DNA from: a virus
DNA: 61,923 nucleotides
IMG/VR virus record: IMGVR_UViG_3300028284_000458
Coordinates: 1-61,923 of that record
Strand: one strand, 5' to 3'
Made by a program: the position numbers and the translations under genes. The notes below the pieces were generated by a model. The model did not search any database, was not told the DNA's origin, and saw only the letters and a list, made by a program, of their open reading frames with translations. This document shows, piece after piece, positions 216 through 25,230 of this stretch (positions are counted from its first letter, which is position 1; each line of letters begins with the position of its first letter).

Positions 216-332
216 TTAGTGATTTTTATAAGTAAAGGGATCTCTTTTTCGCAGTTCTTCTAATTTTTTTTTGTATACCTTATCCAATTTACGTTTCTTA
301 AGATACATTTTAATAATTTTTACTATATTCAT
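216..332 (-). CDS. Small basic protein, 38 aa, unknown function
   Basis: ATG at 330-332 and TAA at 216-218 enclose 38 codons. The product is highly charged, with many lysines (KKRKLDKVYKKKLEELRK) and a C-terminal DPFTYKNH tail; most of it is predicted to be one amphipathic helix. It sits 12 bases downstream of the RmlC-like gene, in the same orientation, and ends just before the next candidate promoter, so it would be the last gene of the glycan island. I recognise no family. The position, spacing and non-random composition favour a real gene. Confidence 0.5.
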   Translation of the reverse strand: MNIVKIIKMYLKKRKLDKVYKKKLEELRKRDPFTYKNH

Positions 333-344
333 AATTTTGTATTT

Positions 345-938
345 TTATTTACAATCATCTATTTTTGAAAGTATTGGATTTTTACAAGGCCATTCCATAT
401 TAAACTTAGTATCATCCCATCTTAATCTATTCTGATTATCTACACTATTAAATTCACCAGAGTATGCTAGTTTGTAATTCATAATGCTATCATCCTCCAT
501 TACATAATGTCCACTTGCAAACATTGGTGGAACTAATACTTGAGTAGCCGTTTCTGGTGATAGGATAAAAGATTCTGATTTACCATATTGTGGATTAGTA
601 TTTAAATTACCTCCCCTTAAATCTAATATTACTAAATAAATTTTTCCATGAGTACATGATATCAGTTTCCAAGTTTTGTTATCATAATACATTCCTCTCA
701 AAACTCCTTCTTTTGATTTAACATATCCATCATGTTTAAATTTTAATCCTGAATTTCTATCAACTGCAGGTAATATTCTATCATAATAATCAGTATGATA
801 TGTTGTTGAGGCAGAACCTCTTAATTCATACTGAGTTGATGGTTGTATAATCTTTACCTGATTTAGTATACTTCCATGGTAGAAGTGAAAATCATTCCAA
901 TCTCTTTCTTTATAAAATATACTACGCCCTTGTGCCAT
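345..938 (-). CDS. RmlC-like sugar-nucleotide 3,5-epimerase (cupin)
   Basis: The central GVLRGMYYD, the following THGKIYLVILDLR strand pair, and the C-terminal LRWDDTKFNMEWP match dTDP-4-dehydrorhamnose 3,5-epimerase (RmlC), which inverts C3 and C5 of a 4-keto-6-deoxy nucleotide sugar; about 197 residues against a usual 180-190. An in-frame ATG at 1034 also exists, but starting at 938 gives a 17-base overlap with the upstream gene and an N-terminus of family length. Other RmlC-family members act on different 4-keto sugars, so the exact substrate is open. RmlA, RmlB and RmlD are not recognised in the window, so its substrate would come from the host or from genes elsewhere in the phage. Confidence 0.8.
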   Translation of the reverse strand: MAQGRSIFYKERDWNDFHFYHGSILNQVKIIQPSTQYELRGSASTTYHTDYYDRILPAVDRNSGLKFKHDGYVKSKEGVLRGMYYDNKTWKLISCTHGKIYLVILDLRGGNLNTNPQYGKSESFILSPETATQVLVPPMFASGHYVMEDDSIMNYKLAYSGEFNSVDNQNRLRWDDTKFNMEWPCKNPILSKIDDCK

Positions 939-1635
939 AACTTTGCTTTTGTTTTTTAATAAAGGAATCCCAATCTTCTTGTGTTCCCCAATCAATGAAA
1001 TCTCGTGTACTTCTGCTAAAAAATGTTTTTCCATTTAATAACATTTTAAAAATTACATGTGATATGTAGATTTCTCCTTCTTGTTTTATGGATTCATATG
1101 TATCTACAAATTCCCTTGCATCTGAAAATGTATACAAGCCACAACAAAAATCCGATGAAATTACATTCTTCTCTACAATCGTTAAAACTTCTCCGCTATC
1201 ATTCTTTTTTATATATGATTTATTTCCAGGTGTTATGTTTGTACAATTATTCAAAGAATATGTACAAACTTCGTTTTTCTCAATCGTATCTATTTTAAAA
1301 TAATCATCTGCATCCTTAATAAATATAGAACCTGTTATATTCTTTTTATCAATTGTCTGTGAAACTGTATCCGATGCACTATGTGTATCATTTTCAAGTA
1401 ATAATAATTCGAAATTTGAAACATCTTTAAATTGTAAATTTACCAATTCAATGAGTTCATTTGTTAAATGTCTTTTTAATGCAACTATAATAATACGGTC
1501 AAATGTACTTAATGGTAATCCCTGAATTGATTCAAATACCATCAAATTTCCACTTGGATGTTCAAGTAACCATTTTGGTAGTTTAGTAGTAAATCTACTG
1601 CTTTTACCTGCACATGGAATTATAAGATTTCGCAT
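922..1635 (-). CDS. Sugar/phospho-alcohol nucleotidyltransferase (LicC/RmlA-like GT-A fold)
   Basis: The start MRNLIIPCAGKSSRF resembles the N-terminal Gly-rich nucleotide-binding loop of NTP transferases (LicC, RmlA, GlmU), and FIKDADDYF near residue 105 supplies the metal-binding Asp pair expected in this fold. At 237 residues it is the length of LicC-type CTP:phosphocholine cytidylyltransferases. It follows a choline-kinase-like gene with a 16-base overlap, the same kinase/nucleotidyltransferase pairing seen in LicA/LicC and in capsule phospho-decoration loci. Activation of a phosphorylated alcohol or sugar as a CDP or NDP derivative is inferred; the substrate is unknown. Confidence 0.7.
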   Translation of the reverse strand: MRNLIIPCAGKSSRFTTKLPKWLLEHPSGNLMVFESIQGLPLSTFDRIIIVALKRHLTNELIELVNLQFKDVSNFELLLLENDTHSASDTVSQTIDKKNITGSIFIKDADDYFKIDTIEKNEVCTYSLNNCTNITPGNKSYIKKNDSGEVLTIVEKNVISSDFCCGLYTFSDAREFVDTYESIKQEGEIYISHVIFKMLLNGKTFFSRSTRDFIDWGTQEDWDSFIKKQKQSYGTRA

Positions 1636-2369
1636 AACTTATTAATATTAGTTTCTAAATATTTTTTTATTTTAACATTATTCGTATATGGATAAATACG
1701 TTGTAAATTAATTATTTGTAATAACTCATATTTTTCTATTGGATAATTTTCCACCAACCAATCATCAATATATGATAATCCAAGTTTTATTTTAGATAAA
1801 TCGGTTACACTACTTATCATATTTAAAGACCAGTGTAGATGTGTATCTTGTCTTAACTTTACCAAATCCATAGTTGGTGATTCAATATATGAATCTAAAA
1901 AATCTATTAAATATATCTCATCCGTGAATATCATGTTTGAAAGAGTCATATCTCCATGAGCCAATCCTACCTTTATTCGTATATCAAGTTCATTATCTAG
2001 TAGTGGTAACAAAGCATCACCATTTGGTAATGATTTTAATTTATTTTTTAGTATCTGTACAGGTATCGTGGTTTCTCCAATAATACGCTCTTTAAAGTAT
2101 CCATCTATTTTACGTATCAACCCATCTAAATCTCGTTTAGTTGCTAAAGTAAAAAATTGGGAAAACGATTCTCCTTGAATATATTCCATTGAGAAGGAAT
2201 CATTATTTATTTCAATTACAGCAGGTGATTTAAAGTGATTGGATTTAAATTCTTTTTGTTTTAGTGCAGACTTTACTAACCTAATATCATCAATATCTGA
2301 TGATTTTGACACAACATTTTCATGTAGTTTTAAATTATAGTTACTATGTCCTTTTACTTTAAAATCCAA
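1620..2369 (-). CDS. Choline kinase / aminoglycoside phosphotransferase-like kinase
   Basis: Residues around 155-195 contain HGDMTLSNMIF, the catalytic Brenner loop (HxDxxxxN), followed by YLIDFLDSY, the DFxx metal-binding segment equivalent to the kinase DFG. Both are typical of the APH/choline kinase superfamily. The N-lobe is short and no aminoglycoside-specific features are seen. The only workable start is a TTG at 2367-2369, which overlaps the preceding gene by 16 bases; an in-frame stop lies six codons upstream. Paired with the next gene, an NTP transferase, it may phosphorylate a small alcohol or amino alcohol before nucleotide activation. Function is by analogy with LicA; substrate unproven. 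Confidence 0.7.
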   Translation of the reverse strand: MDFKVKGHSNYNLKLHENVVSKSSDIDDIRLVKSALKQKEFKSNHFKSPAVIEINNDSFSMEYIQGESFSQFFTLATKRDLDGLIRKIDGYFKERIIGETTIPVQILKNKLKSLPNGDALLPLLDNELDIRIKVGLAHGDMTLSNMIFTDEIYLIDFLDSYIESPTMDLVKLRQDTHLHWSLNMISSVTDLSKIKLGLSYIDDWLVENYPIEKYELLQIINLQRIYPYTNNVKIKKYLETNINKLCEIL

Positions 2370-3349
2370 TCGTAATCTTTTATGTTATCAGTAATCTGTA
2401 ATCTTACCCAGTCTGTTCCTCTTTCTGGTATTACACAATTTTTTCTAAATTCCACATCTCGTTCCATGTGTTTTAATAATGGCAAATCACGTTCTCTTAT
2501 GTGAAACCAATTACATACAGATGGTATAAACTTAATTCCTCTATCATATAATTTAATTAATAATTCACTACGAGTTTTTTTTACATTTAATATGTATTCA
2601 TCTGCGAAATCTTTATTTTTACATATTGTTTGTATCCATTTTAAAGTTTGACCAGATACTTCGTACATATCTCTATATTGAATCATAGAATCTATGTTTT
2701 GTTTCTGAGAAAATATTACTCCAAATCTAGCACCTGCAGAACCATATGCTTTTGAAAATGTTCGAGTAACATATAGATTGGGGTATTTATCTATTAACTC
2801 AATACAACTTCTTTCATTTGAAAATTCTATATATGCCTCATCTATTAAAGTAGGTACTCCCTTATCGAGTATTCTAAGTATGTCATAATATGAAATTGCA
2901 TCTCCTATTGGTGAAGATGGATTTGATATAATTACAATAGAGTTTTTAGTAATAGATTTTAAAAAAGATTCAATTGGAAACTTTATTATATTATATGGTA
3001 TGGAGTGTATTTTTAAATCATACATTTGTCCATATACTCCAAACATAGGAAATGTAGGTTCTGAAATTATTAATTTTTTTCTTCCCCTTAACCAATGTTT
3101 TTTTGAATTAGACTGTACAAAGTACTTTATACATCTATCAGAACCAAATCCCATTAAAAAGTTATCATTTCCATAAAAATCAGATAATGGTTCTTTGAGT
3201 TCTTCCGTGTTTGGATAAAACCTTAAATCATCTTCTGTGAGTGAATCTTTATAATCTTTAAATACGTTTGCCCAAGATGTATTTCTTTCTGCAGAATGCA
3301 ATCTTAGTTTTTTGTGAGATATCGATGGGTTAAATTTTCTTTGTATCAT
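2354..3349 (-). CDS. PLP-dependent aminotransferase, HisC/CobD-like
   Basis: A fold-type I PLP enzyme of 331 residues. Visible landmarks are NPSSPIG near 143-149, LIDEAYIEF near 168-176 with the PLP-pairing Asp170, and TRTFSKAYGSAGARFG with the Schiff-base Lys200. These match histidinol-phosphate aminotransferase (HisC) and the closely related CobD threonine-phosphate decarboxylase. It starts with an ATGA overlap on the NeuB-like gene and is followed by a kinase and an NTP transferase. In this setting histidine synthesis is unlikely; making an amino sugar or an amino-alcohol phosphate for glycan decoration is more plausible, but that is inference. Confidence 0.85.
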   Translation of the reverse strand: MIQRKFNPSISHKKLRLHSAERNTSWANVFKDYKDSLTEDDLRFYPNTEELKEPLSDFYGNDNFLMGFGSDRCIKYFVQSNSKKHWLRGRKKLIISEPTFPMFGVYGQMYDLKIHSIPYNIIKFPIESFLKSITKNSIVIISNPSSPIGDAISYYDILRILDKGVPTLIDEAYIEFSNERSCIELIDKYPNLYVTRTFSKAYGSAGARFGVIFSQKQNIDSMIQYRDMYEVSGQTLKWIQTICKNKDFADEYILNVKKTRSELLIKLYDRGIKFIPSVCNWFHIRERDLPLLKHMERDVEFRKNCVIPERGTDWVRLQITDNIKDYDWILK

Positions 3350-4179
3350 ACAAATCTTCCTCTATAATAATCGTGATTGTGTTCTTGTTGTTTATTGAAT
3401 TTATTGATTTCTATATATTGTTCCCTTTGTGGAAGTTTTGAAAATCTTTTTAATTCTGATAACATTGATGGTGTCATAGATACTTTACCATCCCTAGTTT
3501 CATCTATTTCTAATATTGTAAAATGTCTTTCTAATACATCAATACCTTGAAATATTGCTAATTTTGTTGTAAGTAAATTATCTTCATGTGGATTGGAATG
3601 ATCACTATAACCTACTTTATCTAAACCAAAATAAAATCTATAAAAATCTATATTTTGTAGATTTGCCTTTTCTAAAGGAGTTGGATAAACACAAGTACAT
3701 CCAAGTAGGCAAAAGTCTATATTCATTTCTTTAAGATTGGTTACAGTTTTACTTATTTCATCTAAAGTTAAACTTGATGCAGAAAAGTATAATGTTTTGA
3801 ACTTTATATCTTTTAATAATTTACCATATCCAAACGCAGGTATTGAGTATCCAGATAGTTTCAAATTATCATAACCCAATGAATTAAAATATTCTGTGTG
3901 TCTTGGTGTGAATAATGTAGTCATAGATTCTACATCATGTTCCTTACATTTATCTATAAAGAATTTTTCATCTTCCCATGATAATTCAATACCCTTTAAT
4001 CTTTGGTACTCTTCCTTATATGGTCTAAACTCTTCATACTCTTCTCTCTCAGTAAACGTATCTGCTTTAATGGATTGTATTTTTAATATATCACTATCCA
4101 CAGCTGCAAACTCTATCATAGATTCTAGAATAGCTCTATCACCATTATGATTTTGACATAACTCTGAGATTATTTTCAT
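3346..4179 (-). CDS. neuB: NeuB-family nonulosonate (sialic acid-type) synthase, lacking SAF domain
   Basis: NeuB-type enzymes condense phosphoenolpyruvate with an N-acetyl hexosamine to give sialic, legionaminic or pseudaminic acid. Family landmarks are SELCQNHNGD (5-14), LKIQ (32-35), LGCTCVYPTP (159-168), GYSDHS (190-195) and ERHFTI (217-222), which supply the TIM-barrel active site. At 277 residues it is some 60 short of typical NeuB (about 340), and the sequence stops soon after the barrel, so the C-terminal antifreeze-like SAF domain, which completes the neighbouring active site in the dimer, is missing. Two CMP-sugar synthetases lie a few genes upstream. Which nonulosonate it makes cannot be read from sequence. 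Confidence 0.85.
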   Translation of the reverse strand: MKIISELCQNHNGDRAILESMIEFAAVDSDILKIQSIKADTFTEREEYEEFRPYKEEYQRLKGIELSWEDEKFFIDKCKEHDVESMTTLFTPRHTEYFNSLGYDNLKLSGYSIPAFGYGKLLKDIKFKTLYFSASSLTLDEISKTVTNLKEMNIDFCLLGCTCVYPTPLEKANLQNIDFYRFYFGLDKVGYSDHSNPHEDNLLTTKLAIFQGIDVLERHFTILEIDETRDGKVSMTPSMLSELKRFSKLPQREQYIEINKFNKQQEHNHDYYRGRFV

Positions 4180-4181
4180 AA

Positions 4182-5006
4182 CTAATTTATTTTTTCGATT
4201 ACTCTATTATATGCTTTTTCTTGAGATTCCAATGCAGTACCCCCAACATGTGGTGTTATTATAATTTTATTATTTTTTATTGATAATAAAATAGAATTTT
4301 TAACACTATGTTCATTTTGGATAACATCAGTTGCATATCCTTTTATTTTATCTTCATTTATTAGAGTTAAAATATCCAATTCATTGATAATCTCTCCTCT
4401 ACTTGTATTTACTATATATATTTGTTTTTGAAATTTTGATATATATTCCGAATCTATCATACCAATATTTTCATCACGCAAATCTACATTTATACTTAAG
4501 AAATCAGTTTCATTAAAAAATTGACTATCTGTATAATTTATATCTGATGTGTATACATTTTTAAATATTGGTTTACAGATATGTTCAATCATTTTTCCTA
4601 ATCTACCATATCCAAGAATACCAAGAGTTTTTTCATGTAACTCTACAATATTTTTTGTATTTCTTGGTAGTGATAACATTAAATATAAATTGTGTTCGGC
4701 AGTTGACCATATGTTTTCCAAAACCTTGTCATTTTTAATTGAAATAACAGGTATTGATACATCTATATGATTTGTTCCAGTTGATGGAGATACTACCATA
4801 GATATTTTTGTATTTTTTATAAAATCATCTGTTATTTGAAACTTTTGGTAATTTGGTGCAGAAAACAAATAATCACTAGTTTGTATACTATACTTTTGTT
4901 CCAATTCTGTTAAGTCTGATAAATCTAAACATTTGTATTTAGATTCAACATTTTTTTTAAAATTTGGTAAGTGCTTGTATGGTGTTAAAAATGCAATTCG
5001 TTTCAT
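4182..5006 (-). CDS. D-isomer-specific 2-hydroxyacid dehydrogenase (SerA/PdxB-like)
   Basis: An NAD-binding Rossmann motif (LGILGYGRLGKMI) in the middle, NTSRGEIINE with the catalytic Arg, and ITPHVGG with the catalytic His mark a D-2-hydroxyacid dehydrogenase. At 274 residues it is shorter than D-3-phosphoglycerate dehydrogenase (about 310 for the catalytic part). The start at 5006 is chosen because it gives an ATGA overlap with the preceding gene and leaves MKRIAFLTP as the first strand; an in-frame ATG 10 codons upstream would overlap more. It directly precedes the NeuB-like and HisC-like genes, so it may supply a keto acid or amino-acid-like precursor for the glycan. The true substrate is unknown. 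Confidence 0.8.
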   Translation of the reverse strand: MKRIAFLTPYKHLPNFKKNVESKYKCLDLSDLTELEQKYSIQTSDYLFSAPNYQKFQITDDFIKNTKISMVVSPSTGTNHIDVSIPVISIKNDKVLENIWSTAEHNLYLMLSLPRNTKNIVELHEKTLGILGYGRLGKMIEHICKPIFKNVYTSDINYTDSQFFNETDFLSINVDLRDENIGMIDSEYISKFQKQIYIVNTSRGEIINELDILTLINEDKIKGYATDVIQNEHSVKNSILLSIKNNKIIITPHVGGTALESQEKAYNRVIEKIN

Positions 5007-6466
5007 GGTGTGTAAAATGTTTCTGGTAATATCCATTCTTTATAGTTTTTACCAGTTTTCCAATATTCATGCTCACAATTTATTATTGCAACTTTATTAT
5101 CATTACTTCGTGTCATAGATACTTCGGAATTTATACAAAATAAAAATTCATGTATATCTCTATCATTTATTCCAATTACACGTTCTTCTATGTACATACA
5201 AATTCCACTAAAATTATTTTTTGTTACTAGCTCTTTCCAGTTATCAGCGGAAGGTGTAACAAAACATTCATCAAGAGATACGTAATTTGGTTGAAACGCA
5301 AACGTTTTAGAATTTGAAAATACATCTTTCAACAATTCCTTATTTTCTTGTAAAAAATTGTAATATTTTTTTAGTAATTCAGTTTCATTATCTGAAAACA
5401 TCCCATCTTCGTTAGGAATCATAGTATCCCACGGCATATCATTATTGAAAACCATAGCCCCATAGCTATCATATGATTCTGATATACTGTTTCCATATTT
5501 TATTCGAGGCGGATATCCCCCTTTATGTTTACTATAGATATAGTATAAATGATGTTGGTTTATATTGTTTTTATTATCCGACCTTAGCGCGTTACTCGTA
5601 TATATGTAAAATTTGTTATTTGATAATAATTTATAAAAGTAATTAATAGATTTTAGTGATTTATACGTATACAAAGTAGATGAGTGGTAACTACGTTTAA
5701 GTCCTCCTAATAAAGTGTTAGGTTCTTTAATATCAAAACACTTTAGTATAGTAATATCATGTTCTTTGTGTGTTTTGAATCCTCTATCATAGTCAGTACC
5801 TGTAACATTTGGTGTTGAGAAACTAATTACTTTATTATTTTTATCTACCTTAGAATTTGGTCTATAAACTTTAAGTAACTGCTCAATTGATTCAATCTTT
5901 GTAATATAGTTACTCGAATTCATTTTAACATCAACATTATGTTTTTTATTTACATAAATTAATACATTTTTTAAATTGGTTCGTGTAAAAACACTAGCCT
6001 GTGCTCTTGTTTGACCTGGATGAATTATGAAACTATAATTATTTATTGAATCATCATTAAGATTTAGTGTTGTATTATCATACGATTCATCATTAGAAGA
6101 TTGGGGAAAAACTCTAACTTCCTTATATAAAGCTTTTGCATATGGTTTAAAACTTACATGTAGTGGTAAATTTGAATCAAAATCACAATCAAGTAATTCA
6201 TTTACTATATTAATACGTTGTCTTAATGTAACGGGACAATCACCATGCTCAAAATACTCATCTATAAGTTTGAATGTATTTGAGTAATCATCAAGTGATT
6301 TAAATAATCCTGAGTTATCATACATCCACCTATTTCTTAATGAAAAAGATGCATCATTTCCACAATCTCTAGCTGCAACTATCCATGGTAATGACGTAAC
6401 ATGATATATATCTTGTTTTGATAAAATTTCATTTATCATAGATTTATCATACTCTGATATAGTCAT
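5003..6466 (-). CDS. Unknown protein, 487 aa, with an HPGQTR motif
   Basis: I do not recognise a characterised family. Near residue 150 there is SFIIHPGQTRAQAS, which resembles the Gly-His/Arg turn (HPGxTR) of ParB/sulfiredoxin-like domains and recurs in a weaker form (RGTHR) in the protein at 8778-9644. The remainder is mixed alpha/beta, rich in Asn, Asp, Tyr and Ser, with no signal peptide or membrane span. It lies in the glycan island, 9 bases downstream of a radical SAM gene and sharing ATGA with the 2-hydroxyacid dehydrogenase gene. A role in glycan synthesis or in control of the island is possible but only by context. Confidence 0.75.
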   Translation of the reverse strand: MTISEYDKSMINEILSKQDIYHVTSLPWIVAARDCGNDASFSLRNRWMYDNSGLFKSLDDYSNTFKLIDEYFEHGDCPVTLRQRINIVNELLDCDFDSNLPLHVSFKPYAKALYKEVRVFPQSSNDESYDNTTLNLNDDSINNYSFIIHPGQTRAQASVFTRTNLKNVLIYVNKKHNVDVKMNSSNYITKIESIEQLLKVYRPNSKVDKNNKVISFSTPNVTGTDYDRGFKTHKEHDITILKCFDIKEPNTLLGGLKRSYHSSTLYTYKSLKSINYFYKLLSNNKFYIYTSNALRSDNKNNINQHHLYYIYSKHKGGYPPRIKYGNSISESYDSYGAMVFNNDMPWDTMIPNEDGMFSDNETELLKKYYNFLQENKELLKDVFSNSKTFAFQPNYVSLDECFVTPSADNWKELVTKNNFSGICMYIEERVIGINDRDIHEFLFCINSEVSMTRSNDNKVAIINCEHEYWKTGKNYKEWILPETFYTP

Positions 6467-6475
6467 AATTTATAT

Positions 6476-7402
6476 TTAGTTACTAGTTTTTATATTTTCT
6501 AGCATTGGTACAAGTTCTTTATATGAACAATTTTTACAATGAGATGTTGGATTGTTTGTATTACATCCATTTTGTACATTTTGAAAATCTTCTGAACTTC
6601 GTATATCATCTAAACTTTCTTCAAATAGATTTCCGAATGGTTCAGCTGCGGTATTTAAACAACACATCTTTACATTACCCTCTACGGTTGTATATAATCC
6701 TTCATTAACCCAATAACAATCTTCATAATCCCATTTAGATTTTCCTTTTACATTATCACCCCAAGATTTTAAATACTGTAGTTGTTCATTAGTATATCCA
6801 CCAGGCATACTCTTATCTTCACTCCAATCTTGTGCAATATTTAAACGAAGTTCTTCTAAACCATATCCATCTACGATTTCATCACTTACTCTCTGTATAT
6901 CACTTACGTTTTGAGGGTTTACAACATAATTACAAGTTACTCTACAACCACGTCTATCCATTTCTTTGAAATCTTTTAGAAACGTTAATAATCTACTCCA
7001 CTTTGCAGGGGAACGGTCTCTTTCATAACTTTTATCATACCCATCAATTGAAAAGTATAGTAAATCAATATATTGTAATGCATCTTGAAATCGTTCCCTT
7101 AGAGGCCTTCCTTCACCAATATTATATTGACAATTGGTAGCAACTATTAAGAAAGCATCTGGAAAATATTCTTTAAATATTTTACATACTTCATTAAATT
7201 TTGGATGTAACATTGGCTCACCCATTCCCATTAGTTTAGCTTCAGTTATTGGGTGATGTTTTATACTTTCCATTAAAGTTCTAAACTTTTCGATGGGCAT
7301 GTGATTCAATGCACCAATTACTTCATCTCTATTACAAAATGAACAAGCAAGATTACAATAGTTTGTAGTTTCTAAGTAAACATATGTGATTGGTTTATTC
7401 AT
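6476..7402 (-). CDS. Radical SAM enzyme with SPASM-like C-terminus
   Basis: CNLACSFC (Cys16, Cys20, Cys23) is the CxxxCxxC motif that binds the SAM-cleaving [4Fe-4S] cluster, and MGMGEP near residue 58 is the SAM-binding GGE-like motif. Toward the end, CYW, CCLN, and later Cys residues (in SSEDFQNVQNGC and HCKNCSYKE) form the arrangement of a SPASM auxiliary-cluster domain. SPASM enzymes modify peptides or carbohydrates (for example aminoglycoside dehydrogenation or epimerisation). At 308 residues it is short but complete. It overlaps the NeuA-like gene by 8 bases. Oxidation, dehydration or epimerisation of a sugar is a reasonable guess; a peptide substrate is also possible. Confidence 0.85.
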   Translation of the reverse strand: MNKPITYVYLETTNYCNLACSFCNRDEVIGALNHMPIEKFRTLMESIKHHPITEAKLMGMGEPMLHPKFNEVCKIFKEYFPDAFLIVATNCQYNIGEGRPLRERFQDALQYIDLLYFSIDGYDKSYERDRSPAKWSRLLTFLKDFKEMDRRGCRVTCNYVVNPQNVSDIQRVSDEIVDGYGLEELRLNIAQDWSEDKSMPGGYTNEQLQYLKSWGDNVKGKSKWDYEDCYWVNEGLYTTVEGNVKMCCLNTAAEPFGNLFEESLDDIRSSEDFQNVQNGCNTNNPTSHCKNCSYKELVPMLENIKTSN

Positions 7403-8051
7403 TATATATAAGTTTTGCTAATTTAAAATCTAATTCAGTATCTACATCAATTAGTTCATTTTCACTCCAATCTGTTACAAGTGGAAATGGATTATCTTTT
7501 GTGTTTGGAAACAATTCCCATTCAGATAACATATAATTTTTTTCATAAAACACTAAAGAGTGTGTGGCTAAATAAACCCAAGGTCCTGCAGTTGTAGATA
7601 ATCTATCATTTGGTTTAAAATTTATTGGATTTTTTGTTTTATCCCAAAAAAAGTTTCTTTCTTTCTGAACCGTTATTGCACTCTTACAATCCGATTGTTT
7701 AAACCAATCTATTAATTTCTGCAGCTCCTCTACTTTAACAAACGGTTGACACGGATTATAGTTTACTATAAACTCTGATTTTACATTTTCTAAATGTCTA
7801 TACATTATCGAGTGATGACAATTACCTGGTGCAACCGAATCATAATCTCTATTTAGTATTTGTACCCCATCAATAACTTTATCTTTTAGTTCTTGGTCAT
7901 ACACTGCAAGATACTTTTCATCCACATCCAACTTACTTAAATTATCTAAGGCAATATCAATCAATGTTGTATTACCAAAAGGTCTTAAATGTTTATTAGG
8001 ACATCTAGTACTTGTTTTTCTTGCATGTGCAATTGCTGCAATTGTTTTCAT
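7395..8051 (-). CDS. CMP-acylneuraminate cytidylyltransferase-like (NeuA family)
   Basis: The N-terminal IAHARKTSTRCPNKHLRPFGNTTLI fits the family pattern IPARxxSxRxPxKN, which binds CTP in CMP-sialate and other CMP-nonulosonate synthetases, although the opening Pro-Ala is replaced by Ala-His. At 218 residues it is the length of bacterial NeuA catalytic domains. The C-terminal DVDTELDFKLA is also typical of the family. It overlaps KdsB by an ATGA and sits a few genes upstream of the NeuB-like synthase, so it probably activates that enzyme's product. The sugar specificity cannot be fixed from sequence. Confidence 0.7.
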   Translation of the reverse strand: MKTIAAIAHARKTSTRCPNKHLRPFGNTTLIDIALDNLSKLDVDEKYLAVYDQELKDKVIDGVQILNRDYDSVAPGNCHHSIMYRHLENVKSEFIVNYNPCQPFVKVEELQKLIDWFKQSDCKSAITVQKERNFFWDKTKNPINFKPNDRLSTTAGPWVYLATHSLVFYEKNYMLSEWELFPNTKDNPFPLVTDWSENELIDVDTELDFKLAKLIYNE

Positions 8052-8770: not shown

Positions 8771-8777
8771 ATTTTCC

Positions 8778-13763: not shown

Positions 13764-13766
13764 AAT

Positions 13767-17034: not shown

Positions 17035-17855
17035 ATATGTAATTTTAAATAATTTGCCCACTTCTGATGTGATAGCTCAGTTGGGTGATGATTATCAAAT
17101 AAATCAACTTGCTTATGTTCTTTTAGTGTTGTGAGTATAAATTCTTTAAATGTTATATCTAGAAAATTACTCTCACGTAACTTTATGTATTGTTTTTTTA
17201 TTTGAAGATTTTCTGATGAAAATGGTATTCTTTTAATAGCTTTTATTAAATTAACACTATCCAATATACCATGTTTCGATGGGTCATTTGTTGCTTCAAA
17301 TGTTTCATAGAATGCATCAAAAAATATATGTTTTATATTATGTGAATTTAAATAAGTATGTATATTGATATTTTGAATTAAGTATCTCATAATATACTCT
17401 TCTTGATTCCAAAAATAAGTAGTATATAATTTGGTAAATTCTTCAAATCCATTAGATGGTGTATGGATAGCAGGTGATGCTGGATATATAGTTTCCCACC
17501 TACCTGAATCAGATTCATTCATTATATCTCTATAATAGAAATCCTTTCTTTCAGGAGAAGTCCATCCTACTATTACAAAAATTTCATCTGCATTATATTT
17601 TTCTAATAAATTTCCAACTTGTGATATTACTCTTTTTTCTATACCATCATTAGATGAACCTGCATGTGAAGTATTACGTACCTCAATGTTAGTTAGTTTT
17701 GATAACTTATCTGGCCATACTTTTGGTAATCGGTATGCATCATTATCTCTGTGGTCAATATTTGTGATACCACGTGCTTCTAATTTAGGATCTATTATAT
17801 CACCAGCTGTCCAACTATCTCCCTCGGTTAGTATTATCTTTATATTATTATTCAT
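17031..17855 (-). CDS. SGNH-hydrolase-like protein
   Basis: IILTEGDSWTAGD near residue 8 is the block I GDSx motif with the serine, TSHAGSSNDGI near 70 is block III, and NHHPTELSHQKWANYL at the end carries the DxxH-like His. The start at 17855 (MNNNIKI) overlaps the upstream LamG gene by eight bases; a start at 17897 would add 14 residues with no match to the fold. 274 residues. It is the third SGNH-type protein in the island and adjoins the second, suggesting either tandem duplication or a two-step acylation/deacylation. Confidence 0.75.
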   Translation of the reverse strand: MNNNIKIILTEGDSWTAGDIIDPKLEARGITNIDHRDNDAYRLPKVWPDKLSKLTNIEVRNTSHAGSSNDGIEKRVISQVGNLLEKYNADEIFVIVGWTSPERKDFYYRDIMNESDSGRWETIYPASPAIHTPSNGFEEFTKLYTTYFWNQEEYIMRYLIQNINIHTYLNSHNIKHIFFDAFYETFEATNDPSKHGILDSVNLIKAIKRIPFSSENLQIKKQYIKLRESNFLDITFKEFILTTLKEHKQVDLFDNHHPTELSHQKWANYLKLHI

Positions 17856-18618
17856 TATCAACCCATTCGTTTTTGAATAAAACAGGGTGGAATCCATTAC
17901 CAGACATATCCATTAATTTATAATACGTTCGTTTTGAAAAATCAGTAGAAAATACATTTCTTAAACCACTAGTACCATACTCATATGCCTTTTTTAACCA
18001 AGAATTATAATCAGTAAAAAACTCAGTCCAACTCAACTCATCTGCCGTACTAAGTTGAATACTTATTTTTGAAATATCTCCACAGAATATTGATTGATGG
18101 GTTTCTGCTATTAATGTTGCACAACCTATCCATGTGTAAGAATCTGAATAATCAATTATATTATCATAGTTCATTTTTTCAGAAAGCTCAGATTTAGTTT
18201 CTATTAATGTAAATTCTTTCCTATTAAGGTTGTGATTTAAAACAATATCATAATATCTATCTTCTTCAATCTCCCCATTATTGAAATCCCAATTTAAATC
18301 GAACTCCATACGTTTTTCCACATCCGTTCCTGTTTCGATATCATGTGACCAAAAAACCCATCCTATTTTTTTATAAATCAAACCATTATCTCCTCTATAT
18401 CCGTTATGAAATATTCCAGCATGTTTACCATTCTTTGCAATTACTGCTCCATTGTATACACCTGTTTCTTCTATAATTTTATTTATTTTTTTTGTATCTG
18501 GTTTAAATCTACAATATATAGAAAAATCTCCCTTAAGTAAATCTTGCATATTATAGTTAACTAAATTGTATTTATCTCCGTTTGCAAAGAAAAATATATT
18601 ATTTTTATCTATTATCAT
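17848..18618 (-). CDS. LamG/concanavalin A-like lectin protein
   Basis: The succession of beta strands, FSIYCRFKPDT near residue 32, YYDIVLNHNLNRKEFTLIE in the middle and MDMSGNGFHPVLF at the end, is the pattern of a LamG/concanavalin A-like jelly-roll domain; the closing LSGNGxxG-type motif also ends the LamG domains of the two GT7 fusions downstream. No enzymatic domain is attached. At 256 residues it is a single domain. It shares ATGA with the radical SAM gene and probably binds the glycan or the surface on which it is built. Confidence 0.6.
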   Translation of the reverse strand: MIIDKNNIFFFANGDKYNLVNYNMQDLLKGDFSIYCRFKPDTKKINKIIEETGVYNGAVIAKNGKHAGIFHNGYRGDNGLIYKKIGWVFWSHDIETGTDVEKRMEFDLNWDFNNGEIEEDRYYDIVLNHNLNRKEFTLIETKSELSEKMNYDNIIDYSDSYTWIGCATLIAETHQSIFCGDISKISIQLSTADELSWTEFFTDYNSWLKKAYEYGTSGLRNVFSTDFSKRTYYKLMDMSGNGFHPVLFKNEWVDNE

Positions 18619-20048
18619 AATTTTATAGTTTGTGTATGTTCGTAAAAATCTGCTAGTTCTGGATAAACTTCTTTAAAATTAGTTTCTCTACGTCTATCAT
18701 GTTCTTTAAAGAACACCCCAAAATCACGTCTTTGTTTTAACAGCTCCTCTTCGTTTCTATCGGTAAGCATCCAATCATATGTTCTTTTTACTTTTTGTAT
18801 CTCAACATCAGAATATCCCACATGTACATGTTCAAATTTTGGAATACCAAGGTAATCCATGTGTCTTGCAGCATCTTTTATTTTTATAGCCCATTCTTCT
18901 GGTAAAACTTTTACAGTTTGGTGTTTAGGATATCGTAAATAAGATGTATCTAAAAATACTGCAGAGTTCCAATATCTATCACTCGAAGTATATTTCATCT
19001 TTAAATCATAAATATAATCTATTAATTCTTTATAACTTGGTACTGATAGTGCATTAAAGGTTGACATTACCGTGATGCTAACTCGCTTACAACTTGCAAG
19101 AATTTTATTTACATTTTTATCAAATTGTTCCCAATTCAATCCGTTTCTAATGTACTCTGCTTGTGCACCAAATCCATCAACAGATGTAAATATAATAAAT
19201 TCTTCTACAAGTTCCCTATCTTCAATTGCTTGAATTTTTTCTATTAATCTATCAACCAATTTATCAGGAATTCCTAAATTAGAATTTATTGCTAATCTTA
19301 ATTTTTTGTTTGGATTGGGTTCGTTTATAATATAATCCAATACTCCCCACGTATCCTTACTCATAAGTGGTTCTCCACCTGTAATTCTGAATGTATGTAA
19401 ATCTCTATATAAATCTGGCCACCATTTCCAAAATGCTTCTACATATGGATTGTGTTCTGTATGTAATATAGGAACTTTTCCTTCTCCAATCAATCCATCC
19501 AAATCATTAAATTTATCAAGTGTTGGATATGCTCCTTCTGCTTTTACTTCTTGCATCCATGCTGATGAAAAAGAAGGTCCACAATATGAACATTTAAAGT
19601 TACAAGCGTTTGAGAATGCAACTTCTACGTATTTAGGATTGTAATCTCCCCTCCAACCCAAATCTTTAATTTCTTGCATGTGTGGAAGTGACCAAGATTC
19701 TGCTGATTTAAATACCCTATCTGAAAACTGAGGTGATGCATCTTCAACATCCCAACAATAATGACATTCTTCAGGCCTTCCACCTTCTAACATTTCTTTA
19801 CGAATACGTTTTTTATAACGTGTATTATGTAATGCAGAAGGGTTTCGTTTTATCTCACTTTCATTTATCTTATGTGTTGTTGGGTGATGACAAGAATGAG
19901 TATGTCCCATTTGTAAGTGAATTGTAACTTGTGTCCACTTAGCTAAACAGAATCCACATCCTTGTGCATCAAGTTCTTTCTTAGTATTAAGATAGATTGG
20001 ATTGTTAGCAAAAGCTAAAGAAGGATCCTTTTTTGGTGTTTCACTCAT
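18615..20048 (-). CDS. Twitch-domain-like radical SAM enzyme
   Basis: SNACNFKCSYCG holds Cys149, Cys153 and Cys156 (CxxxCxxC) for the SAM-binding [4Fe-4S] cluster, and ITGGEPLMS is the GGE motif. N-terminal cysteines (CGFC at 31-34, Cys53, ECHYCW at 95-98) could bind an extra cluster. Radical SAM proteins with this layout are common in marine T4-like phages, where their substrates are unknown. At 477 residues it is full length. ATGA overlaps tie it to the LamG gene downstream and the GT7-LamG gene upstream. A role in modifying a sugar or a protein is open. Confidence 0.85.
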   Translation of the reverse strand: MSETPKKDPSLAFANNPIYLNTKKELDAQGCGFCLAKWTQVTIHLQMGHTHSCHHPTTHKINESEIKRNPSALHNTRYKKRIRKEMLEGGRPEECHYCWDVEDASPQFSDRVFKSAESWSLPHMQEIKDLGWRGDYNPKYVEVAFSNACNFKCSYCGPSFSSAWMQEVKAEGAYPTLDKFNDLDGLIGEGKVPILHTEHNPYVEAFWKWWPDLYRDLHTFRITGGEPLMSKDTWGVLDYIINEPNPNKKLRLAINSNLGIPDKLVDRLIEKIQAIEDRELVEEFIIFTSVDGFGAQAEYIRNGLNWEQFDKNVNKILASCKRVSITVMSTFNALSVPSYKELIDYIYDLKMKYTSSDRYWNSAVFLDTSYLRYPKHQTVKVLPEEWAIKIKDAARHMDYLGIPKFEHVHVGYSDVEIQKVKRTYDWMLTDRNEEELLKQRRDFGVFFKEHDRRRETNFKEVYPELADFYEHTQTIKL

Positions 20049-21520
20049 AATTTTACGTTTATTAATTTTGCTTTTGGTGTTATCTCTTCAATTTCAAGTA
20101 ATTCATATTCCAACTGTTCAATACCATCGGATTTATAATCCCACGTTCCTTGTTGCATCTCGTGAATGTACCTTTTCTCATTTCGAGCAGTAGTTTTTCC
20201 CTTTGCCCAAACATCATTTCCATTTGAATCCTTAACCATACCTTCATCCTTATGTGGCAAACAATTCATTTTTCCATCTTTACGATGTGGTATAACGGTA
20301 TGTGGAATTTTAATTTCTTCTTTATTAAACATCCCTCTTGTTATTTTACCATCTATACCATTACCACTCAAATCAATAGCTATTCTTGTTGAATCAATTT
20401 GTTCTTTGTTGTTAAAATCATAGTGTAACACAAGTTTATCGGTTGGTATTTCTTTATGTATGTTTGAAATCTCATCTGAATCTAAACATCGATTCCACAT
20501 CATTACTTTAGCTATATCACCCTTAAACCATTTATTGGGTTCTGTTTTAGAAGTTGAAGTGGTTGTTCCTAAATAATAATCATCTAATCCATATGATTTT
20601 AATCTATCTTGATATTTAAGTGGTGATTGTGTACCATGTCCATGTCTTGCATCTGATTCTTTACCATTTAAATAAAAGTGTATATTTTGTTTAGATGTAT
20701 CAACACTCAAGGTAATCCATGCCCATTGGTTTTCATATCGTTTTATCCATTGATACAAATGATTCTGAGTACTATCCCACAATTGAGCAGTATATGCTCT
20801 AGAGTTATTATAACTCAATCCATAATCATATCCTGGTCTTCTTAATATTGGATATTCACAGAACCTTCTATCATCATCACCTATTAACCAAATTGGAACT
20901 TTTTCTTCTTGTTGATTTGCTCTTACTAATACTGATATAGTGTGGGAACGAGAGGTTAATGATTTTAATTTCTTATGTCTTGGTATTTTTACAAAACTAT
21001 TTTTACCGTTAAATGATAGGTAGTTATCTAATTTACTTGAATAATCAAGATACGTATCATTTGCATATCCTTCTAAAGCACATCTCCAAAACAAATCATC
21101 ATCTTCCATTCCCCAATCCCAATAATCATTTGAATAACCATTGGTTCTTTCAACTTGTTCTTTTGAGAATATAACAGCTCCTCCAAAATACTCTTCATAT
21201 TTTAGATTATAATCCATTTGGGATATTGAAGTTGCAATATGTATTGGAGTTGTATTAGGAAAAGAATAATCTGCTCCACCATCTTCTTCAGGTATCATAT
21301 CAATATCATGCCAAACTATATAATCACACCCATCTTCAAATGCGTGTTTTGCAGCAACGTTTTTCATTGCTCCTCTATTAAATAATTTATCATCACATTG
21401 ATGACCAAAATACATACAATAATCAATACCCATCTTATCAAGATATTCACCAACCTCTGGTACAAATCTTTTTAAATGAGCTTCCCTATTTCTATATGGT
21501 ACACAAACTCCTAGTTTCAT
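20045..21520 (-). CDS. GT7-type galactosyltransferase fused to LamG lectin domain
   Basis: Residues 1-155 are a GT-A enzyme like the N-terminal part of beta-1,4-galactosyltransferase (GT7): VPYRNR (7-12), FNRG (47-50), HDIDMIP (71-77, DxD-like metal site) and WDWGMEDDDLFWR (134-146). From about 165 to 390 the chain reads as a LamG/concanavalin A-like domain, with DLSGNGIDGKI at its end. A C-terminal 70-residue tail follows. The protein would transfer galactose or a related sugar while its lectin domain holds the acceptor. A homologue with the same domain order is encoded at 21921-23360. It is linked by ATGA overlaps on both sides. Confidence 0.82.
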   Translation of the reverse strand: MKLGVCVPYRNREAHLKRFVPEVGEYLDKMGIDYCMYFGHQCDDKLFNRGAMKNVAAKHAFEDGCDYIVWHDIDMIPEEDGGADYSFPNTTPIHIATSISQMDYNLKYEEYFGGAVIFSKEQVERTNGYSNDYWDWGMEDDDLFWRCALEGYANDTYLDYSSKLDNYLSFNGKNSFVKIPRHKKLKSLTSRSHTISVLVRANQQEEKVPIWLIGDDDRRFCEYPILRRPGYDYGLSYNNSRAYTAQLWDSTQNHLYQWIKRYENQWAWITLSVDTSKQNIHFYLNGKESDARHGHGTQSPLKYQDRLKSYGLDDYYLGTTTSTSKTEPNKWFKGDIAKVMMWNRCLDSDEISNIHKEIPTDKLVLHYDFNNKEQIDSTRIAIDLSGNGIDGKITRGMFNKEEIKIPHTVIPHRKDGKMNCLPHKDEGMVKDSNGNDVWAKGKTTARNEKRYIHEMQQGTWDYKSDGIEQLEYELLEIEEITPKAKLINVKL

Positions 21521-21930
21521 AATGTATTTGAAATTTCTTCTTTAAATTTTGTCGTACTCCAACCATGAGAACGATCTATCCAATGAATAAGTATGCCCAA
21601 ATCATCTCCTGTATATTTTTTATCTACATAATCATCTCCTAAAAATCTTACATCAGGATTAATTGATTTTAATAAAAAATACAATTCTTTCTCGGTATTA
21701 TAAGTTAAAAAAGTAGGTTGGGTAAAAAAATACTTTAACATACTCTTACGTTCTTCTGTATTGAGTATTGGTTTTAGCTTTTCAGGTCGTTCTATTTGTG
21801 GATTATCGTGTAACAAAACATATTGATTAGTACACTTTTTATTCATCTCTTCAAATAGTTTAATATAACCTGGATGTACTACATCAAAGTTTCCACATAT
21901 TACTCCTATTTCTAATTTACTTACTTCCAT
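21517..21930 (-). CDS. TagD/RfaE-like cytidylyltransferase with altered HxGH
   Basis: A 137-residue protein with GVICGNFDVVHPGYIKL, the position of the HxGH nucleotide-binding signature, and a late RSHGWSTTKFKEEI that matches the STTxxxxxI motif of glycerol-3-phosphate cytidylyltransferase and RfaE/HldE-type enzymes. The size fits TagD. The second histidine of HxGH is tyrosine here (HPGY); this residue normally helps stabilise the transition state, so activity may be reduced. It could activate glycerol phosphate or a heptose phosphate. Located between the two GT7-LamG genes. Confidence 0.68.
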   Translation of the reverse strand: MEVSKLEIGVICGNFDVVHPGYIKLFEEMNKKCTNQYVLLHDNPQIERPEKLKPILNTEERKSMLKYFFTQPTFLTYNTEKELYFLLKSINPDVRFLGDDYVDKKYTGDDLGILIHWIDRSHGWSTTKFKEEISNTL

Positions 21931-23360
21931 AGTTCTACTGATAAAAAATAATAATTTTCCATTTTTGTATCTGATAATAATTTAAATCTAACATTATCAA
22001 TACCATCTCTTTTATAATCGGATTTTCCTTTTAATACTTTATTATAAAAGTGTAATTGGTTTTTTCGTGTATCTGTCCAAGTCCATTTATTTTCATAGAA
22101 ACCATTTTCTTTATGATACAACAATTCAAATGTAGAATCTCTTCTCCAAGGAATTGGTATTGACATAAAATCACTAGCTTGTTGAATTGGTACTTTATCA
22201 CAATCTATAACTTCAGCATTTCTACCCTTTCGGTTTCCACTTAAATCAGGAATATTAGAATAAGTTGCAGTTTTCATATCATAACATACTTCAAGAGTAT
22301 GTGGTGCAATATAATTACCATAAGCCTCAGTAAGTCCCATTGATTTGTTTGTAGATATTTCCTTAACTTGAGCTTCTTCTAGTGAATGATTAAATATTGC
22401 AAAATAATCAATAGTTCCACCAAACGGTCTTCTATTATTAAATTCCAATGAAGGAGAATCACCCAAGTACATCTTCTTTTCAGAAGCATAGTTTATTAAA
22501 TTACCAGGAAATTCAATTAAATCTACTAACTCTCCATCTTGATAAAATTTAATAATATTATCATCTTGATTTACAGTAACACATAGTGTAGTTTGCTTAG
22601 GAGGAGATATATTTGATTTTAAACTTATACAATCTTTATCGGTATTGAATACTTCAAATTTATATCTTTTATATGAATTATACGAAAAACTTAAATCATA
22701 TCCAGGAATACAGAAAATATTATACTCATCTGATGCATATCCTTCATTACATTCGATTTCATTTGGCTCAAACGAACAAAATATAGTATAGTTTTTTAAC
22801 CTAAAAGGTTTAGGTATAGTAACCTTACTAGTATATCCATTTAGTTTTAATGCGGCTGAAGAGTGTGAATTTAATGGTAGTTCTTTTTTGTTAAAATCAG
22901 TAAAGTTTTCCTTACATCTCCAAAGTAAATCATCATCCTCATAACCCCATCCCCAATATTTGTTAGAATAACCATTTATATGGTAATAATCATTTATTGG
23001 AAACATAGTAACACCACCAAAATATTCATCAAAAACAATACGTTTCTGTTTTTTGTAGTGATTTGATATAAAATTAGTAGCTAAATGAGTAGGTCTATCA
23101 ACTATAGAATAATCGACAGCCGTACTTGGTATCATATCAACATCATGTAGTACTATGTAGTTACACCCAAGTTCCTTAGCTTTATTCACACCTATGTTTA
23201 ATAGAGAACCTCGATTGAACGGAAGTTCATCGGATTGTTCTACTATAATCAATTCATAATCTATCTTAGATTTATTGAAATGATTTTTTATAGATGTTGT
23301 AAAGTGATTTAGGTGCGTTCTACGATTCCTATATGGTACAATGATACCAAGTTTATTCAT
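21921..23360 (-). CDS. GT7-type galactosyltransferase fused to LamG lectin domain
   Basis: This is the paralogue of the protein at 20045-21520, with the same order: VPYRNR (8-13), FNRG (48-51), HDVDMIP (72-78) and WGWGYEDDDLLWR (136-148) in a GT-A domain, then a LamG-like jelly roll (about 165-390; begins LKLNGYTSKVTIP and has DLSGNRKGRNAE late). Length 479. The N-terminal halves are clearly alike, and the lectin halves differ more, as expected if they recognise different acceptors. It is the first large gene of the long polycistronic unit, 10 bases downstream of a small gene. Confidence 0.82.
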   Translation of the reverse strand: MNKLGIIVPYRNRRTHLNHFTTSIKNHFNKSKIDYELIIVEQSDELPFNRGSLLNIGVNKAKELGCNYIVLHDVDMIPSTAVDYSIVDRPTHLATNFISNHYKKQKRIVFDEYFGGVTMFPINDYYHINGYSNKYWGWGYEDDDLLWRCKENFTDFNKKELPLNSHSSAALKLNGYTSKVTIPKPFRLKNYTIFCSFEPNEIECNEGYASDEYNIFCIPGYDLSFSYNSYKRYKFEVFNTDKDCISLKSNISPPKQTTLCVTVNQDDNIIKFYQDGELVDLIEFPGNLINYASEKKMYLGDSPSLEFNNRRPFGGTIDYFAIFNHSLEEAQVKEISTNKSMGLTEAYGNYIAPHTLEVCYDMKTATYSNIPDLSGNRKGRNAEVIDCDKVPIQQASDFMSIPIPWRRDSTFELLYHKENGFYENKWTWTDTRKNQLHFYNKVLKGKSDYKRDGIDNVRFKLLSDTKMENYYFLSVELWK

Positions 23361-23370
23361 CGATACTTAT

Positions 23371-23556: not shown

Positions 23557-23595
23557 AACGTAAATTTATTAATTGTTTTTGTTTTTGTTTGTTGT

Positions 23596-23605
23596 ATATA
23601 AATAT
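23596..23605 (-). promoter_or_regulatory. Candidate late promoter motif
   Basis: ATATTTATAT on the minus strand, followed by AC, lies 40 bases before the 61-residue gene and would drive the 23-kb glycan operon. Confidence 0.45.
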
Positions 23606-23614
23606 ATAAAATTA

Positions 23615-24463
23615 TTAAATACTAATAATTTTTCTTGTTAATCTATTCCATTTTGAATAATCAAAATGAAACTTATTTTCTGTTTTTTCTATCATAAATT
23701 CTGGATTGTTGATATCTATTTTCCAATCATTAATTTCGATTGCTTTATACATCTTTTTATATTCTTTCCAGAATGAATAATCTTCAAGTGTTTCAGATAC
23801 TTCTTTTAAACGTTCTAAAACAGTTGAATCCCATTTAAAATGATGAACTTGTACAAATCCCTCACCTCTTCCAATTGGGTATCTGAGAGGGTGTTTAAAT
23901 CCTTCCATACCCCATACATGAGATTCGTTTATTATTGCATAGTGTTGACCAGGCGTTACATCCACCGAACCTTTCATTATACAAACTTTATTTGGACAAG
24001 CTCCACTCATTGGATATCTAAAATACCCCACAAGTGGAAACTTACTCCATATATCAGTTTCGTTTGTTACCAAAGGAAACTCTCCGTTCTCTCCTATCCT
24101 ATCGAGAAAACCTCCTGTTATGAATTTCCATCCATTCTCCTCACATTCAGAAATCATCTCTCTGATTGGTTTTGGGTAAACATGGAATTCATCATCATCC
24201 GAAACCACCCACCATTCCTGAGGCTTTGTTCGTTTAACTTCGTTATATAATTGGGTTACTCTTTCCCAATTAAATTTTTCTTCTGTTACTATTTTATGTG
24301 GGGTTATTCCAAGAGATTTTATTTCATCTAAAATCCCATCGTTTTCATGTTGTCTATAAACAACAACATAAATTTCATCAACAATGTTTTTATAGTGTTC
24401 CATCATATGTGGAAGCATTGTAATGTTATGACCAACAACTGTAACTAAATTTATTTTTTGCAT
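23615..24463 (-). CDS. GT2-like glycosyltransferase
   Basis: QKINLVTVVGHNITMLPHM at the N-terminus and EWWVVSDDDEFHVYPKPIRE near residue 95 show a GT-A family 2-like enzyme whose DDDE is the DxD metal-binding motif. The C-terminal HHFKWDSTVLERLKEV is also seen in related phage and bacterial transferases. 282 residues, no transmembrane segment. It overlaps the methyltransferase gene by 13 bases. Donor and acceptor unknown. Confidence 0.75.
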   Translation of the reverse strand: MQKINLVTVVGHNITMLPHMMEHYKNIVDEIYVVVYRQHENDGILDEIKSLGITPHKIVTEEKFNWERVTQLYNEVKRTKPQEWWVVSDDDEFHVYPKPIREMISECEENGWKFITGGFLDRIGENGEFPLVTNETDIWSKFPLVGYFRYPMSGACPNKVCIMKGSVDVTPGQHYAIINESHVWGMEGFKHPLRYPIGRGEGFVQVHHFKWDSTVLERLKEVSETLEDYSFWKEYKKMYKAIEINDWKIDINNPEFMIEKTENKFHFDYSKWNRLTRKIISI

Positions 24464-25230
24464 CTTTGTAGAAATGTTAATCCAGTTGAAGATGGTCTAC
24501 TTTTAAGTATACCATTGTTAAAAAAATTGAAAATTTCCCACTCTTTATTTTCCTTTAATTCTGCTATAAGCTTAGAAGGTCCAGCTGCGTACTCATGGTG
24601 AAACTCATCAAGAATATCATCTGAAATGATATGTTCCTTCTCATATGATGAATCGGTATCGTGAATTGTTATGATACCATGTGGTGAGAGTATTTTTGAA
24701 TATAACTCAAAATCATTTTTAACATCCTCATAGGTATGACCTGCATCTATGTGTAGATAATCTATCTTAATACCCTCCTTTACAAAAAAGTTATAGTAAG
24801 CATTTTCTGTTGTATCTAGTATGAATCTACACGGAAACGTTTTTCTAAAATATGAATCTTTATTGTTCCAATCCGTATATCCACCAACTCCATTTGAAGC
24901 ATCAACTAATATGGTTGTACCACTATCACCCCATTCCATTGCTTTATCACCATCAAATATTTCTTGCTCATGTAAATCAATTCTTGCTTGGGACATTATT
25001 CTTGGAATAAATCCACCACCACTTCCTAAACATACACAAGTTTTTGCTCTCATGTATTGTATTGTACTATAGATTAACATACCATCTCCCAAATGTTTAT
25101 CGGTAGCCCCATGAGTCCATCGATACTTAACAGGTGTTAATTCATCATATGCAATACCATTGACATCGATACATTCTTTCCTATTATTAGTAAAGTAATC
25201 TTTTATAAGATTGAAATTTATAATACTCAT
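24451..25230 (-). CDS. Class I SAM-dependent methyltransferase (Methyltransf_24-like)
   Basis: TCVCLGSGGGFIP carries the glycine-rich SAM-binding motif I, and IDYLHIDAGHTYEDVKNDFE with a following GIITIHDTD is the conserved pattern of the Methyltransf_24 family, which includes sugar O-methyltransferases. The length of 259 residues is typical. It is the first gene after a 203-base leader containing two tandem copies of the candidate promoter motif. It most likely methylates a glycan or sugar nucleotide; the target is not known. Confidence 0.8.
   Translation of the reverse strand: MSIINFNLIKDYFTNNRKECIDVNGIAYDELTPVKYRWTHGATDKHLGDGMLIYSTIQYMRAKTCVCLGSGGGFIPRIMSQARIDLHEQEIFDGDKAMEWGDSGTTILVDASNGVGGYTDWNNKDSYFRKTFPCRFILDTTENAYYNFFVKEGIKIDYLHIDAGHTYEDVKNDFELYSKILSPHGIITIHDTDSSYEKEHIISDDILDEFHHEYAAGPSKLIAELKENKEWEIFNFFNNGILKSRPSSTGLTFLQRCKK

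Follow-up and report, generated by a model that had tools for sequence, protein, structure and literature searches.

Organization of the sugar gene island

The window analyzed here is the whole 61,923-base IMG/VR virus record IMGVR_UViG_3300028284_000458, which also carries baseplate wedge, primase, SbcC-like, and endolysin-like genes. Positions 345 to 25230 are filled by an island of sugar-related genes, g1 to g28; all 28 open reading frames (ORFs) lie on the minus strand, and start and stop codons overlap in most. An initial annotation had described a glycan gene island beside a giant tail gene, starting at position 216, a start that is accounted for by a 38-amino-acid ORF at about 217 to 332 (by eye). 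Its gene list was almost entirely borne out by profile comparisons with Pfam, NCBIfam/TIGR, and PHROG, to which we added some calls by eye or by motif. The giant gene, g30, does stand beside the island, but not immediately, as the glycosyltransferase-like gene g29 separates the two.

A SAF-less NeuB-type synthase and its partner enzymes

The core gene g5 encodes a TIM barrel with the phosphoenolpyruvate (PEP) and metal residues of canonical NeuB/PseI; among proteins of solved structure, it is closest to synthases for sialic and pseudaminic acid. The positions for PEP, metal, and general catalysis were aligned to 1xuu and 2wqp, with the PEP- and metal-binding residues taken from the numbering of 1xuu (N. 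meningitidis NeuB). Residues E6, K33, Q35, K107, S192, H194, E217, H219, and D230 are invariant in 19 aligned viral sequences, and the N184 position is Cys in the window protein. The protein is 277 amino acids long, matches PF03102 alone, lacks the C-terminal SAF/antifreeze-like domain, and ends in a YYRGRF-type tail. Judged by its domain content, g5 is not a canonical NeuB.

The conserved partners of g5 are similarly intact. In the family of g6, a D-2-hydroxyacid dehydrogenase (2HADH), the catalytic Arg and His are present in 43/43 sequences and Glu in 41/43. The aminotransferase g4 belongs to a family in which the pyridoxal phosphate (PLP) Lys200, Asp170, Arg208, and Asn143 are invariant (34/34), and all nine radical SAM/SPASM cysteines are invariant in 33/33 members of the g8 family. 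The NeuA/PseF-type cytidine monophosphate (CMP)-sugar synthetase of classical nonulosonate pathways is represented by g9, which is weak against NCBIfam NeuA/PseF models yet scores above the cutoff for CTP_transf_3; its R11, S14, K20, P103, and D204 are invariant in 23 sequences. The GT7 proteins carry the family motifs DxDxxP, YFGG, and WGWGxEDDD, the first of which reads DVDxIP in g26. The initial annotation's pairing of a NeuB-family synthase with a CMP-sugar synthetase, both tail linked and with intact active sites, therefore held: the catalytic residues examined in NeuB, NeuA, 2HADH, aminotransferase, radical SAM, and GT7 proteins are intact, and the loss of active-site residues that would have spoken against the annotation was not observed.

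Other assignments needed revision. The single dehydrogenase reported at first is g6, but a second, g14, is also present; g14 retains the NAD and catalytic parts without the UDP-binding domain, which suggests an altered substrate. The putative RmlC-like epimerase g1 does belong to that cupin fold family, but its catalytic His is replaced by Tyr: the site reads GMYY in g1 and in the nearest relative, L002, but GLHY in L050. A sulfotransferase-like protein could not be verified, as g16 has no Pfam match. In the family of the GT-B protein g15, the PseG model gives weak matches in 5/11 members (best, 2e-5), and g15 itself matches MJ1255. The AlphaFold model of g7 (pLDDT, 80.5) has no PDB match below an E value of 0.3, and that of g11 (pLDDT, 79.9) has no PDB fold match; both proteins are kept across viral cassettes.

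The second synthetase, g10, is a real CMP-Kdo synthetase by its score, yet it is a local addition outside the core, because it has no KdsA partner and is absent from L002, whose NeuB is 95% identical. Neither KdsA nor WaaA was matched among the island genes, leaving KdsB alone of the Kdo pathway. A recent gain in the window or a loss in L002 would explain this distribution. We also considered KdsB and NeuA as a conserved pair and rejected this, since KdsB is missing in L002 and viral KdsB relatives (36 to 45% identity) lie elsewhere in context.

The island recurs in other viral contigs

Homologs of the g5 NeuB were found at 47 viral loci, with 54 to 95% identity. In most loci of sufficient length, the cassette follows the order NeuA, g11 family, HAD, NTP transferase, glycosyltransferase, radical SAM, SGNH, aminotransferase, g7, 2HADH, and NeuB. 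Of the contigs found via g15 (L170 to L173), three match the window colinearly from the GT7 genes through g8, apart from minor gains and losses (L170, L171, and L172), and the fourth, L173, spans the g15-to-g8 part. Eighteen contigs continue for 21 kb or more upstream of NeuB, and GT7-LamG and twitch-domain radical SAM genes occur in every one of them (18/18); the corresponding 18/47 for all NeuB records mostly reflects limited contig reach. The GxGH GT-B gene is present in 17/47 records, 16 of which are among the 18 long contigs. Pairwise divergences of NeuB, 2HADH, aminotransferase, g7, radical SAM, and NeuA are correlated across viral loci (r, 0.54 to 0.82; 0/500 permutations as high). The island is not a chance assembly: its gene order repeats in many independent viral contigs.

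Described phages offer few counterparts. Among GenBank phages, NeuB had a single match, a Moritella record at 27.6%, g8 had one weak match, and g24 had none; PHROGs contained no family for g5, g7, g9, g11, g15, or g22.

Table 1. Features of the island and its tail-side flank in the window
Gene	Assignment	Positions	Strand	Basis
g1	RmlC-like cupin, catalytic His to Tyr	345..1034	-	PF00908, 1.4e-27
g2	Nucleotidyltransferase-like (weak)	922..1635	-	PF12804, 0.0059, below cutoff
g3	APH/kinase-like, subthreshold	1620..2369	-	PF01636, 9.3e-05, below cutoff
g4	HisC-like PLP aminotransferase	2354..3349	-	PF00155, 3.7e-26; TIGR01141, 8e-41, below equivalog cutoff
g5	Putative SAF-less NeuB-type PEP-condensing synthase	3346..4179	-	PF03102, 113 bits (cutoff, 22)
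g6	2HADH, NeuB partner	4182..5036	-	PF02826, 7e-29
g7	Conserved cassette protein	5003..6466	-	Family F3, 36 members; no Pfam match
g8	Radical SAM/SPASM enzyme	6476..7402	-	PF04055, PF13186
g9	NeuA-like CMP-sugar synthetase	7395..8051	-	PF02348, 1e-08; cellular NeuA profile match
g10	KdsB-type CMP-Kdo synthetase	8048..8785	-	Above TIGR00466 cutoff; 3k8d, 2.4e-37
g11	Conserved cassette protein	8778..9644	-	Family F10, 26 loci; no Pfam match
g12	SGNH-like	9631..10425	-	GDSL and DUF6071, both weak
g13	Glycosyltransferase-like, order conserved	10422..11270	-	RXYLT1_C, weak; 52-67% in L170-L173
g14	Short UDP-sugar dehydrogenase	11267..12040	-	PF03721 and PF00984, without PF03720
g15	GT-B protein, GxGHxxR family (MJ1255/PseG/MurG-like)	12037..12987	-	Cellular GT-B profile match; MJ1255
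g16		12987..13763	-	No Pfam match
g17	Glycosyltransferase-like by eye	13767..14597	-	Family F15, 22 loci; no Pfam match
g18, g19, g20	g20 SGNH-like by motif; g18 without Pfam family	14560..17061	-	Order kept in L170-L172; g20 absent from L171
g21	SGNH/DUF6071	17031..17897	-	PF19547, 7e-13
g22	ConA/LamG-like by eye	17848..18618	-	No family match
g23	Twitch-domain radical SAM protein	18615..20048	-	NF033640, 2e-106
g24	GT7 (beta4GalT family) fused to LamG	20045..21520	-	GT7 and LamG profile match; motifs
g25	Cytidylyltransferase-like (CTP_transf_like)	21517..21930	-	PF01467, 2e-09
g26	GT7 (beta4GalT family) fused to LamG	21921..23360	-	Beta-1,4-galactosyltransferase 1, E 3.6e-24
g27	GT2	23615..24463	-	PF13704; linked to GT7 in other contigs
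g28	SAM methyltransferase	24451..25230	-	PF13578; linked to GT7 in other contigs
g29	GT-B-like by eye, extends island	25434..26627	-	No Pfam/PHROG match; L176 homolog adjoins tail fiber
g30	Giant repetitive fiber-like protein, 3036 aa; likely acceptor or neighbor	26639..35749	-	

Marine cellular relatives of the viral NeuB

In a quick tree, 46 viral NeuB proteins form one clade (SH-aLRT support, 99) beside 46 cellular SAF-less NeuB proteins (support, 80). The latter come from SAR11, SAR116, Prochlorococcus, Nitrososphaerota, candidate phyla, and other bacteria, and SAF-bearing copies on some of the same SAR11 contigs branch outside the SAF-less group. Cellular SAF-less and viral NeuB proteins share about 30 to 42% identity. 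Because the viral clade branches deeply and apart from the cellular ones, we rejected recent capture from a sampled cellular lineage. The cellular proteins end in the tail LNRDYYRGRF, of which the viral ones have a short form; our guess is that this tail stands in for the SAF arginine.

The neighborhoods are related as well. Near the cellular SAF-less NeuB genes, we found NeuA (41/46), UDP-sugar dehydrogenase with CBS (27), GxGH GT-B (27), and 2HADH (11), and the window proteins g9, g14, g15, and g6 match the profiles of those neighbors. The cellular UDP-sugar dehydrogenases are about 560 amino acids long with CBS, whereas the phage g14 is short; g7, g11, and the HisC-like aminotransferase had no match in the cellular NeuB neighborhoods. 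NeuA itself varies in architecture: a NeuA~2HADH fusion adjoins a SAF-less NeuB on a Kuenenbacteria contig (L147, 10979 to 13537), and several Nitrososphaerota loci have a long NeuA (599 to 686 amino acids) adjoining NeuB.

A transferase module with an exchangeable donor slot

The GT7 part (g23 to g28) recurs in some 45 further large phage contigs (up to 336 kb), where it often adjoins a g30 homolog. None of the 45 other GT7 contigs tested, many of which are fragments, encodes a g5-type NeuB (a positive control was run). In L050 to L053, the slot between g22 and g1 is filled by short-chain dehydrogenase/reductase (SDR)-type epimerases and other sugar genes. These patterns show a fairly constant transferase module paired with swappable sugar-donor genes, the NeuB cassette being one such set.

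Genomic position and phage affinities

In the NeuB phages that we checked upstream, the block starts after tail-fiber or fiber-like genes; in L177, capsid- and neck-like genes lie still further upstream (by eye). In the largest group, it ends at the genes for the tail sheath and the tail tube. The sheath protein of this group shares 65% identity with that of Flavobacterium phage immuto and 48% with that of Microcystis phage Mel-JY01; for the window baseplate wedge, the closest counterparts are in Mel-JY01, in an uncultured phage of 484 kb, and in immuto. This kinship makes Bacteroidota plausible, though unproven, as hosts. Another group (L037, L039 to L043, L045, L047, and L048) has other downstream genes, including those for lysozyme-like and terminase-like proteins, and these different flanks point to movement of the island between phage lineages.

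Near the C terminus of g30, an intein/Hint-like stretch (window positions 27266 to 27685, residues about 2689 to 2828) is indicated by a weak PF14890 match and, by eye, Cys at its start and HN at its end; genes of the L176 fiber region also show Hint-like stretches (by eye). Elsewhere in the window, positions 1 to 173 hold the start of an edge gene that is nucleotidyltransferase-like (NMN adenylyltransferase-like by eye), and positions 40355 to 40840 encode a protein of the PHROG "NAD synthetase" family; together, these two could possibly serve NAD salvage.

A predicted pathway for virion glycosylation

The island is best explained as a soluble unit for glycosylation that marine myophages have conserved and that is grouped with their tail-fiber genes. 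Its substrate, product, acceptor, and biological effect we infer as follows. g5 would condense PEP and a sugar aldehyde into a 3-deoxy-ulosonic acid of the nonulosonate type; g6, g14, g4, and g8 may shape the precursor or product of g5; and g9 would activate the ulosonic acid as a CMP-sugar. Glycosyltransferases, including the lectin-fused GT7 enzymes g24 and g26, would then build a glycan containing the CMP-sugar-derived unit, most likely on a tail-fiber or adhesin protein encoded by adjacent genes. We give about even chances to this full version, in which a soluble pathway yields a nonulosonate-like sugar, activated with CMP, for the decoration of tail fibers.

Several points weigh against it. 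No NeuC, PseB/PseC/PseH, or legionaminic precursor enzyme had a Pfam match among the 29 genes, so host supply or another route would be required. For the "nonulosonic-acid pathway" of the initial annotation, NeuB and NeuA stand, but the term is overstated, given the missing SAF domain and precursor enzymes and the absence of KdsB from L002. The correlated divergence of the cassette proteins may stem from common phage ancestry, not common function, and a position among structural genes is no proof of late expression.

The product might instead be a different CMP-activated acid (keto or hydroxy) that would also serve as a surface or fiber tag and is compatible with either acceptor. The missing SAF domain, the missing classical precursor enzymes, and the lack of a UDP-binding domain in g14 argue for this, as does the 2HADH partner, which to our knowledge is foreign to classical nonulosonate pathways. 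However, the closest solved relatives of g5, the conserved NeuA-like partner, and the pairing of cellular relatives with PseG/MJ1255-like GT-B proteins all speak for a nonulosonate, and we regard another acid as a real possibility that falls short of even chances. Somewhat less probable, and on balance unlikely, is that the island remodels the host surface (lipopolysaccharide [LPS] or capsule) and so prevents superinfection or changes receptors, its CMP-sugar feeding host glycosyltransferases and exporters. A host-surface role is favored by the authors who described pelagimyophage (PMC7029224) and jumbo cyanophage (PMC7824862) clusters, and the NeuB relatives sit in cellular loci of surface-polysaccharide type. 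However, the 29 genes include no flippase, polymerase, or initiating transferase, and a hydropathy scan, which would miss peripheral membrane glycosyltransferases (a further point against a soluble pathway), found a transmembrane-like segment in 0/29 island proteins; 35/46 cellular NeuB loci have one nearby. The block also lies between tail fibers and tail sheath, where late expression would be expected. Because of this structural-block position and the lack of a membrane protein, we lean to the virion as the probable target.

It is very unlikely that the GT7/radical SAM genes and the sugar cassette are mere neighbors, a fiber-modifying module and a separate unit with no joint function. The GT7 contigs without NeuB and the replaced slot in L050 to L053 would fit such independence, but the GT7 module accompanies NeuB in all sufficiently long contigs, and what fills the swapped slot is again a set of sugar-donor genes, as expected of one system with exchangeable donors.

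Relation to known systems and significance

Large phage sugar islands are already known. Host recognition clusters of pelagimyophages average 44.6 kb and carry many glycosyltransferases and LPS genes (PMC7029224), and P-SSM2 has a 15-gene cluster (PMC7824862); with the 47 viral NeuB loci, these contradict the initial view that phages seldom carry sugar pathways at this scale. Like the clusters of pelagimyophages and marine T4-like cyanophages, which are large variable islands among structural genes, the island is rich in glycosyltransferases and lies beside tail-fiber genes in the structural block; both have tail fibers, glycosyltransferases, UDP-glucose dehydrogenase, and radical SAM genes (PMC7029224). 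Clusters of that marine T4-like type are flanked by VrlC and the neck gene gp14. In contrast, the order of the island is conserved, its nearest sheath relative is from a Flavobacterium phage, and the main text of that study contains neither "sialic" nor "NeuB." The capsular polysaccharide/LPS clusters of P-SSM2-type jumbo cyanophages likewise combine multigene sugar production with several glycosyltransferases, but the P-SSM2-type cluster has 15 genes, and NeuB and sialic acid are absent from the paper's text (PMC7824862).

With canonical sialic, pseudaminic, and legionaminic acid pathways (NeuB/PseI with NeuA/PseF), the island shares the catalytic NeuB barrel and the CMP-sugar synthetase; it differs in lacking the SAF domain, NeuC, and PseB/C/H and in having an extra 2HADH. 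The SAF-less clusters of SAR11, SAR116, Prochlorococcus, and Nitrososphaerota are closer, as they share NeuB without SAF, NeuA, 2HADH, UDP-sugar dehydrogenase, and GxGH GT-B. The phage GT7 enzymes have the family motifs of animal beta-1,4-galactosyltransferases but are LamG fused and have no transmembrane segment. Our literature search on phage NeuB found nothing specific, and a conserved unit that combines a SAF-less NeuB core with lectin-fused GT7 enzymes appears new. A bolder reading, which we consider distinctly unlikely, is that marine phages share with the ocean's most abundant bacteria and archaea an undescribed nonulosonate branch (SAF-less NeuB, 2HADH, and UDP-sugar dehydrogenase) and coat their tail fibers with a host-like acidic sugar via animal-type, lectin-fused GT7 enzymes.

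With these findings, what was a loosely described class of phage sugar islands gains a clearly delimited, colinear unit whose enzyme core can be tested. The unit is tied to tail fibers in several marine phage groups and linked to an uncharacterized acidic-sugar pathway in SAR11, Prochlorococcus, and ammonia-oxidizing archaea. If the fibers do bear the sugar, the island would be relevant to how marine phages control host recognition and adsorption.

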